Source: an uncultured Pelagibacteraceae bacterium (GTDB lineage Bacteria; Pseudomonadota; Alphaproteobacteria; Pelagibacterales; Pelagibacteraceae). From it: 64,000 nucleotides of DNA. Below the pieces are notes generated by a model. The model did not search any database. It was given only the letters and a program-made list of their open reading frames with translations, and was not told where the DNA came from. The stretch covers positions 1 through 64,000 of the forward strand of contig CABYLY010000003.1 of assembly GCA_902519945.1 (NCBI GenBank). The letters run 5' to 3'. This document shows positions 18,205-37,778 of the stretch, piece by piece. Position numbers and translations under genes: made by a program. How positions within the stretch are numbered: the stretch's first letter is position 1; each line of letters starts with the position of its first letter.

Positions 18205-18313
18205 ATGAGTTTTTGATTCGATACTGCCTTTTTTTTAGATTTTTAAATTATAAATTGTATTTAATTTTAAAAAGTAAGTAAAATCAATGTAAATTAATGA
18301 CAATTAAGTCTTC

Positions 18314-18319
18314 TATAAT
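18314..18319 (+). promoter_or_regulatory. Candidate -10 box of the proteorhodopsin promoter
   Basis: A perfect TATAAT lies 98 bases before the proteorhodopsin ATG in the 212-base prpE-proteorhodopsin gap. No good -35 hexamer exists at 16-18 bases; ATGACA (18297-18302) is too close (11 bases). If used, the transcript would start near 18326 and carry a leader of about 90 bases with the hairpin and palindrome described separately. Confidence 0.4.
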
Positions 18320-18352
18320 CTCTCTATATTTGCTATTTAACGCACAACTTTT

Positions 18353-18388
18353 GCTTAGGGAAGCCTAAGCTTAGTTTATATAAACTAA
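18353..18388 (+). promoter_or_regulatory. Structured proteorhodopsin leader: hairpin plus 18-bp palindrome
   Basis: GCTTAGG-GAAG-CCTAAGC (18353-18370) is a perfect 7-bp hairpin with a four-base loop. It is followed without gap by the perfect palindrome TTAGTTTATATAAACTAA (18371-18388). Both lie between the candidate -10 and the Shine-Dalgarno GAGGGAG (18404-18410). This is an inferred 5' UTR element or protein-binding site; its role (mRNA stability, ribosome access or operator) is unknown. Confidence 0.55.
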
Positions 18389-18403
18389 TAAAAACTAACT
18401 AAA

Positions 18404-18410
18404 GAGGGAG
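18404..18410 (+). promoter_or_regulatory. Strong ribosome binding site of proteorhodopsin
   Basis: GAGGGAG, separated by six T residues from the ATG at 18417. This is one of the strongest Shine-Dalgarno matches in the window, where most genes have weak or no site, and fits a highly expressed membrane protein. Confidence 0.75.
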
Positions 18411-18416
18411 TTTTTT

Positions 18417-19190
18417 ATGAAAAAACTTAAACTGTTTGCTCTTACTGTTGCGGCATTGATTGGTGTAACTGGTATAGCAAACGCAGCTTCTGCTACGATG
18501 TTAGCTCAAGATGACTTCGTTGGAATATCTTTCTGGATAATTTCAATGGGTATGTTGGCTGCTACAGCGTTTTTCTTTATGGAGAGAAATACTGTTGCAC
18601 CTGGCTGGAAAACGTCAGTAACTGTTGCAGGGCTAGTAACTGGTATTGCATTCATCCACTACATGTACATGAGAGAAGTATGGGTGATGACTGGCGATTC
18701 ACCAACAGTATATAGATATATTGACTGGTTAATTACTGTGCCACTACAGATGATAGAATTTTACTTAATTCTAGTAGCTGTAAGAAAAGCAAATTCTGGA
18801 ATTTTCTGGAGATTGTTAATCGGTTCATTAGTAATGTTAATCGGTGGATATTTAGGAGAAGCAGGATACATCAATGCTACACTTGGTTTTGTAATCGGTA
18901 TGGCTGGATGGATCTACATTCTTTATGAAATATTCTCAGGTGAAGCTGGAAAAGCTGCTGCTAAGAGCGGAAACAAAGCTCTAGTAACTGCGTTCGGTGC
19001 AATGAGAATGATTGTAACTGTAGGTTGGGCTATTTACCCATTAGGTTATGTATTTGGTTACCTAACTGGTGGAGTAGATGCTAACTCATTAAACGTAGTA
19101 TATAACTTAGCTGACTTTATAAATAAAATTGCATTTGGTCTAGTAATCTGGGCTGCTGCAGTAAGTTCAGCTGGTGCAAGAGCAAGATAA
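18417..19190 (+). CDS. Proteorhodopsin, blue-absorbing type (light-driven proton pump)
   Basis: A retinal-binding seven-helix inner membrane protein that pumps protons outward in the light. The 257-residue protein begins with a signal peptide (MKKLKLFALTVAALIGV...ANA). Functional residues line up with the reference protein with an offset of +6: H81 (His75), proton acceptor D103 in YRYIDWLITVP (Asp97), spectral-tuning Q111 in PLQMIEF (position 105), proton donor E114 (Glu108) and retinal lysine K237 in FINKIAFGLVIW (Lys231). Gln at the tuning site predicts blue absorption. A strong RBS precedes it and an intrinsic terminator (19213-19251) follows, so it is probably monocistronic. Retinal synthesis genes are not in the window. 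Confidence 0.98.
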   Translation: MKKLKLFALTVAALIGVTGIANAASATMLAQDDFVGISFWIISMGMLAATAFFFMERNTVAPGWKTSVTVAGLVTGIAFIHYMYMREVWVMTGDSPTVYRYIDWLITVPLQMIEFYLILVAVRKANSGIFWRLLIGSLVMLIGGYLGEAGYINATLGFVIGMAGWIYILYEIFSGEAGKAAAKSGNKALVTAFGAMRMIVTVGWAIYPLGYVFGYLTGGVDANSLNVVYNLADFINKIAFGLVIWAAAVSSAGARAR

Positions 19191-37163: not shown

Positions 37164-37778
37164 TTGAAAAAAAATAAAATTTCAAAAAACTGGGTAAATA
37201 GACAAAAAAGAGATATTTTTGTTCGTAAATCTAAAATTGAGGGATTTCGAGCAAGATCTGCTTACAAATTAATTGAAATAAATGAAAAATTTAAAATTTT
37301 AAAAGGAGGAATGATAGTTGTTGATATTGGTGCTGCACCAGGTAGTTGGTCACAATATGCCTCAAGGATTGTTAAAAATAGCGGTCATGTAATTTCAATA
37401 GATTTAAAAAAAATGGATGAGATTAAGAATACGACGCAGATAATTGGAGATTTTACTGAACCAGATATTCAAGAAATTATAAAAACTAATTTAGTTAAAG
37501 AGGCAGATCTTGTAATGTCAGATATGGCTATAAATACCACAGGAATAAAAAATATAGACTCTATTCAAACAGGTGAATTATGTAAGGAGGCTATGATTTT
37601 TTCTAAAGAAATTATTAATAAAAATGGTTCATTTGTTTCTAAAATATTTATGGGATCATCATTTAATGAAATTGTCGCACTAGGTAAAAAACTTTTTAGA
37701 GAAGTTAGGGTTTTTAAACCTCAATCAAGTCGCAAAGATTCCAAAGAAAGTTTTATTATTTGTAAAAAAATTAGATAG
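37164..37778 (+). CDS. rlmE: 23S rRNA 2'-O-ribose U2552 methyltransferase RlmE
   Basis: An FtsJ/RrmJ-type SAM methyltransferase acting on the large ribosomal subunit A loop. The 204-residue protein has NWVNRQKRDIFVRKSKIEGFRARSAYKLIEI, motif I VVDIGAAPGSWSQYA, the catalytic K-D-K-E set (including DLVMSDMAIN, SFVSKIF and SRKDSKESFIICK). The start is a TTG directly after the upstream TGA; no ATG is available before the conserved N-terminal block, so TTG is well supported. Confidence 0.93.
   Translation: MKKNKISKNWVNRQKRDIFVRKSKIEGFRARSAYKLIEINEKFKILKGGMIVVDIGAAPGSWSQYASRIVKNSGHVISIDLKKMDEIKNTTQIIGDFTEPDIQEIIKTNLVKEADLVMSDMAINTTGIKNIDSIQTGELCKEAMIFSKEIINKNGSFVSKIFMGSSFNEIVALGKKLFREVRVFKPQSSRKDSKESFIICKKIR

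Follow-up and report, generated by a model that had tools for sequence, protein, structure and literature searches.

Proteorhodopsin (PR) is a light-driven proton pump. In SAR11, the most abundant bacteria in the ocean, its gene belongs to the most strongly transcribed energy genes of surface waters, and the region upstream of the PR gene raises the question of how its level is set in so reduced a genome. We addressed this question in a DNA stretch of 64,000 nucleotides (the window) from a Pelagibacter-type SAR11 genome, labelled genus g1 in our comparisons. The original prediction placed a 7-bp hairpin and a perfect 18-bp palindrome between the promoter and the ribosome binding site of the PR gene, and direct reading of the sequence confirmed the positions of both (Table 1). 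The hairpin, P1, reads GCTTAGG-GAAG-CCTAAGC and is followed by the palindrome, P2; to these we add a third, weaker element, P3. Rfam searches at gathering and permissive thresholds returned nothing in the PR leader. Elsewhere in the window, Rfam matches were the SAR11_0636 sRNA (RF01827, 26803-26892) and a glycine riboswitch (RF00504, 48985-49075).

Table 1. Features of the PR upstream region and gene in the window.
Feature	Position	Strand	Remarks
Possible -35 CTTCTA	18310-18315		
Extended -10 TGcTATTTA	18331..18339	+	Conserved 5' of P1 in genus g1 as TTTGnTATTTA
Predicted transcription start	18347	+	By homology to HTCC7211; inferred for the window strain
Predicted leader	18347-18416	+	70 nt
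P1, 5'-terminal RNA hairpin	18353..18370	+	18353-18359 pairs with 18364-18370; loop 18360-18363
P2, perfect 18-bp palindrome TTAGTTTATATAAACTAA	18371..18388	.	Hairpin or DNA-level palindrome
P3, SD-presenting hairpin	18390..18415	+	18390-18396 AAAAACT pairs with 18409-18415 AGTTTTT
Shine-Dalgarno (SD) GGGAG	18406..18410	+	Direct reading; nearly invariant in the aligned set
PR coding sequence (CDS), 257 aa	18417..19190	+	ATG at 18417; Pfam PF01036, E 6.1e-54

In AT-rich DNA inverted repeats may arise by chance, and shuffled versions of the window do yield about one 18-bp palindrome per 64 kb: two palindromes of 18 bp or more were observed, compared to 1.1 per dinucleotide shuffle. Within the 212-bp intergenic region such a palindrome was moderately rare (19 of 2000 shuffles). 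Palindrome length alone is weak evidence, and the real evidence is conservation. PR genes were present in 233 of 297 sampled Pelagibacteraceae genomes; the comparison drew on upstream regions of two families within the order and covered 110 leaders in which the P2 core could be recognised. Loci were found with R1, which served solely for this purpose. R1 was built on a MAFFT alignment misplacing P1, so that its structure comprised P2 and P3 only; its strong matches (E below 0.001) lay at PR-leader places, as far as the places are known, and weaker non-PR matches had E values of about 0.01 or worse. Over 98 distinct leaders the median folding z-score was -2.8 for the P1 segment, -4.7 for P2 and -2.6 for P3, compared to 0.1 and 0.2 in two upstream 36-nt segments and -0.1 at the start of the CDS, which indicates that structure is confined to the leader. 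This confinement led us to reject a chance origin, and together with conservation and covariation across about 100 genomes it leaves that explanation a negligible probability. A phage origin was rejected as well, since no match was found among phage records or viral contigs.

Where the transcript begins was derived from the relative HTCC7211, whose PR gene is listed as 529616-530457 in Table 2 of a published start-site study (PMC5069720). In genome G035, which has a matching gene position, the PR ATG lies at 529690, placing the listed start 74 nt upstream of the ATG and 7 nt downstream of a TATTTA hexamer. That the table columns are start-extended is our reading and is not stated in that paper; listed starts of the other HTCC7211 genes checked behave as transcription starts, with leaders mostly of 0-31 nt and the rest longer or internal. 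At 74 nt, the PR leader exceeds those of nearly all checked genes, apparent internal starts excepted. Transferred to the window, this start predicts transcription from about 18347. Initiation downstream of 18388, which would have left P1 and P2 outside the transcript, is contradicted by the start mapped upstream of both elements in this close relative.

In all 67 leaders to which the HTCC7211-derived rule was applied, the predicted start is followed by P1 after 3-6 nt. In 35 distinct leaders with an 8-bp stem and 4-nt loop, double-sided changes occurred at 6 of 8 pairs; the number of double-sided cells was 15 compared to 4.5 in shuffles, and slid controls were far lower. Among P1 cells, G-U combinations numbered 36 and A-C combinations none, which assigns the fold to the sense strand. 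In the rest of the genus and in genus g4 the P1 sequence is wholly rewritten and folding is retained, so that among 44 distinct P1 sequences it is the pairing rather than the sequence that is conserved. The compensatory changes found here in P1 thus answer the covariation analysis proposed with the original prediction in its favour. Altogether, covariation combined with the start mapping in the relative shows P1 to be an evolutionarily maintained sense-RNA hairpin near the mRNA 5'-end. In five leaders of genus g2 (L094-L097 and L100) the P1 hairpin itself includes an SD-like GAGGGAG resembling the true downstream SD.

A hairpin followed by TTAGTTTATA might also act as a weak intrinsic terminator or pause site, which would make the leader an attenuator. 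A loose terminator scan does flag 18353-18370 with this tail (1 found, 0.0 expected), and runs of T5-T8 follow the leader hairpin in genera g7, g9 and g12. However, A and G interrupt the tail in genus g1, a strict scan of a g7 locus (L112) returned no terminator, no conserved antiterminator was seen, and PR is highly transcribed. We therefore regard attenuation as very unlikely. The PR leaders of these three genera (L110-L120 and L151) do have a terminator-like look, with hairpin, T5-T8 and an TTTTTGTTTAAACAAAAA palindrome directly before the SD.

P2 is the most sequence-conserved part of the leader. Throughout the genus, and in most of g2 and g4, the core GTTTA..TAAAC is preserved, and its arms TAGTTTA/TAAACTA enclose five centre types, one giving a 16-bp form and four (AATT, ATAT, TATA and TTAA) 18-bp forms, all of them self-complementary; the exception is leader L101, with a longer stem and a non-palindromic loop. 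Perfect palindromes unrelated in sequence occupy the P2 place in other SAR11 genera and in the sister family f2: TTTTTGTTTAAACAAAAA or a longer form in g7, g9 and g12, and TAATTTTATAAAATTA or a similar palindrome in most PR leaders of f2, L143 having none there. No palindrome was found at the P2 place in PR leaders of genus g5. As RNA, P2 is of marginal stability (-2.6 kcal/mol at 37 °C). What is conserved in P2 is thus its perfect palindromic form more than the stability of a hairpin. A second rhodopsin gene, with about 45% identity, is present in two members of the genus (L153 and L154, in genomes G218 and G088), and its upstream region is unrelated.

Palindromes also occur in leaders of other SAR11 genes. 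Of 17 HTCC7211 leaders tested, all from highly expressed genes, 8 contain a palindrome longer than in their own shuffles (p<0.05 each, uncorrected). Perfect palindromes between start and SD were seen in the leaders L175, L179, L184, L185, L188, L193 and L197 and in orthologues (L206-L325), the HTCC7211 genes with such leaders being tauA, opuAC, potD, dctP, PB7211_130, yhdW and the H+-pyrophosphatase gene. Palindromes of at least 10 bp were present in 100% of yhdW, 100% of potD and 96% of dctP orthologues, compared to 10-16% after shuffling, and in 57% of tauA orthologues, which have several different palindromes (23-28 distinct sequences per gene). Since no palindrome excess was seen in the 40 nt preceding ORFs at large (26 starts in the window, 61 in HTCC7211), palindromes are not a genome-wide property. 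The window also holds the perfect palindrome TTTAAAATTTTAAA (37290-37303), immediately 5' of the SD that precedes an FtsJ-like methyltransferase ORF. Closest to PR in layout is the yhdW leader (HTCC7211 PB7211_1204 and orthologues; L193 and L206-L235), in which a 5' hairpin, TTCAAAA..TTTTGAA, is followed by the nearly invariant perfect palindrome TTATTTGTTAACAAATAA, an A-rich stretch and the SD; the P1 and palindrome sequences differ from those of PR, and the product is a transporter component. For the yhdW P1 z-scores, only rows ending in a TTTTGAA-type stem were read, as the palindrome matches both strands and wrong-strand rows were present. A perfect AU-rich palindrome between start and SD could tentatively be proposed as a general, hitherto undescribed leader element of the most highly expressed SAR11 genes (PR and transporter genes), its self-complementarity conserved while its letters change from gene to gene and clade to clade, but we consider this generalisation doubtful. 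If true, it would point to a shared expression or regulatory module in which a protein binds symmetrically or RNA duplexes form, rather than simple hairpins.

The yhdW, dctP and potD palindromes are nearly invariant and do not covary, which leaves room for a DNA-level role of this class of leader palindromes. For PR, the corresponding explanation is that P2 is a DNA operator bound by a dimeric regulator or nucleoid protein on the early transcribed region, with P1 a separate RNA element. In nearly all clades the self-complementarity of P2 extends right through its centre, where the 4-nt loop of a mere hairpin would be expected to drift freely; invariant perfect palindromes recur in the three leaders just named, of which the dctP and potD ones lack the stability to fold as RNA at 37 °C. 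On the other hand, the spacing of the arms shifts by 2 bp between clades (16- or 18-bp span) and the distance from P2 to the -10 varies between 29 and 36 bp, both ill-suited to a rigid dimer. The palindromes of other genes differ in sequence, and L101 with its non-palindromic loop does not fit either. Strict P2 patterns found the PR gene, and further matches per genome were about or below the rate of a reversed-pattern control in 297 and in 10 genomes, on which basis a palindrome regulon was rejected: the same site did not occur at other promoters above control, and half-site spacing was not fixed. An operator for the divergent acs gene was likewise rejected because genus g9 loci retain the PR palindrome without acs. 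The operator offered in the original prediction is not supported for P1; for P2 it is conceivable, but with no second copy-family at strict stringency and with varying spacing we consider it fairly unlikely.

P3 was selected by RNAalifold together with P2, with the SD in the P3 loop. Two matched changes support it: in genera g2 and g4 it consists of GAAAAC with GTTTTC, an A-U to G-C co-change relative to g1, and in L105 and L106 it is shortened on both sides to GAAAC with GTTTC. How P3 pairs are counted depends on choosing between registers that lie one base apart in different clades. In one control, (b), a neighbouring register paired equally often, for which reason the evidence is moderate that P3 holds the SD in a weak hairpin near the AUG. 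Its estimated stability is about -5.7 kcal/mol at 37 °C and -9.6 kcal/mol at 20 °C, and the SD is partly paired by it (median about 0.6). A FourU-type RNA thermometer was rejected since the U-run of P3 pairs with the A-run and not with the SD; of GGGAG only AG is paired.

The two downstream elements could also form a regulated RNA switch, in which strand a of P2 (TTAGTTT) pairs either with its own partner (a') or with the P3 strand (AAACTAA, b') and the SD is thereby opened or closed, with temperature, a protein or a metabolite as possible input. The AAACTAA repeat of P2 and P3 is conserved, and in the window both folds are populated at 37 °C, with P(a-a') 0.50 and P(a-b') 0.40. Over 104 leaders, however, median P(a-b') is 0.016, so that the alternative folds considered (P2 strand with P3 strand; U-run with CDS start) were rejected as populated in the window strain and not conserved. 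Furthermore, the leader has neither an Rfam family nor a conserved aptamer core, and the P1 sequence is free to vary. PR has been reported to be constitutive, with neither transcript nor protein altered by light (PMC3090418), and it ranked 10th by start-site reads in situ (PMC5069720). Constitutive expression and high in situ start activity argue against a light switch, and do not address energy or temperature input. Light or riboswitch control is therefore not supported, the light- or energy-responsive element among the initial suggestions finds no backing, and we judge a switch of any such kind to be quite unlikely.

We favour, with a probability of roughly 0.55, the explanation that the leader combines a 5'-terminal stabilising hairpin with a translation-initiation region and serves constitutive high PR expression without ligand or light input. 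P1, 3-6 nt from the mRNA 5'-end, would most likely shield this end from RppH/RNase E-type decay; P2, a perfect AU palindrome that evolution has kept, lies between this hairpin and the ribosome site, and P3 would present the SD in a weak hairpin next to the AUG. Acting together, the three elements would most likely confer high and constant stability and translation on the PR mRNA. All 4 near-complete genus members examined have an RNase E/G family gene; in the genome of the window itself, 78% complete, no RNase E was detected. We counted the yhdW leader with its shared layout in favour of a stabilising leader. Against it we counted that pairing of the SD by P3 would normally lower translation, and that P2, although weak as RNA, is the most sequence-conserved element, a degree of conservation not required of a plain stabiliser. 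Of the three functions originally suggested, an mRNA stability device is the best supported, now with P1 as a covarying sense-RNA hairpin at the very 5'-end and a stabilising effect that is probable by analogy.

A hairpin that starts 3-6 nt into the transcript has the geometry of 5'-terminal stabilising stem-loops such as that of ompA, for which PMC3997798 cites the primary papers. The E. coli ompA and phage T7 gene 10 leaders confer high, constant mRNA stability and translation. Like the stem-loops of ompA and papA in E. coli and aprE in B. subtilis, P1 is a hairpin a few nucleotides from the 5'-end with a strong SD downstream in a highly expressed gene; it leaves few unpaired 5' nucleotides at the predicted start, its pairing rather than its sequence is conserved, and RNase E/G family genes are present in near-complete relatives. 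In contrast to the ompA type, P1 is followed by two further elements, the conserved perfect palindrome P2 and the SD hairpin P3, the sequence is unrelated, and the effect on PR mRNA stability is predicted. The T7 gene 10 leader, with its 5' stem-loop, AU-rich stretch, strong SD and high output, resembles the PR leader in the order of parts, by which we claim no homology; to our knowledge it has neither a perfect palindrome nor a covariation record of the kind described here.

We found no description of the PR leader structure in the open-access literature searched. A 2009 survey of SAR11 structured RNAs (SAM-V, rpsB, ffh and others), which ranked long, relatively GC-rich intergenic regions, does not mention rhodopsin in its text (PMC2704228). 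The RNAs of that survey by Meyer et al. resemble the PR leader as cis-acting leaders in the same organisms, from which the PR leader differs in matching no Rfam family. Nor did we find described the pattern that highly expressed SAR11 genes, with leaders mostly of 0-31 nt, repeatedly carry perfect leader palindromes. For the setting of PR levels, a structured leader with a 5'-terminal hairpin is a concrete and testable answer, and either the structured PR leader or the palindrome pattern would guide expression work in the hard-to-engineer SAR11.
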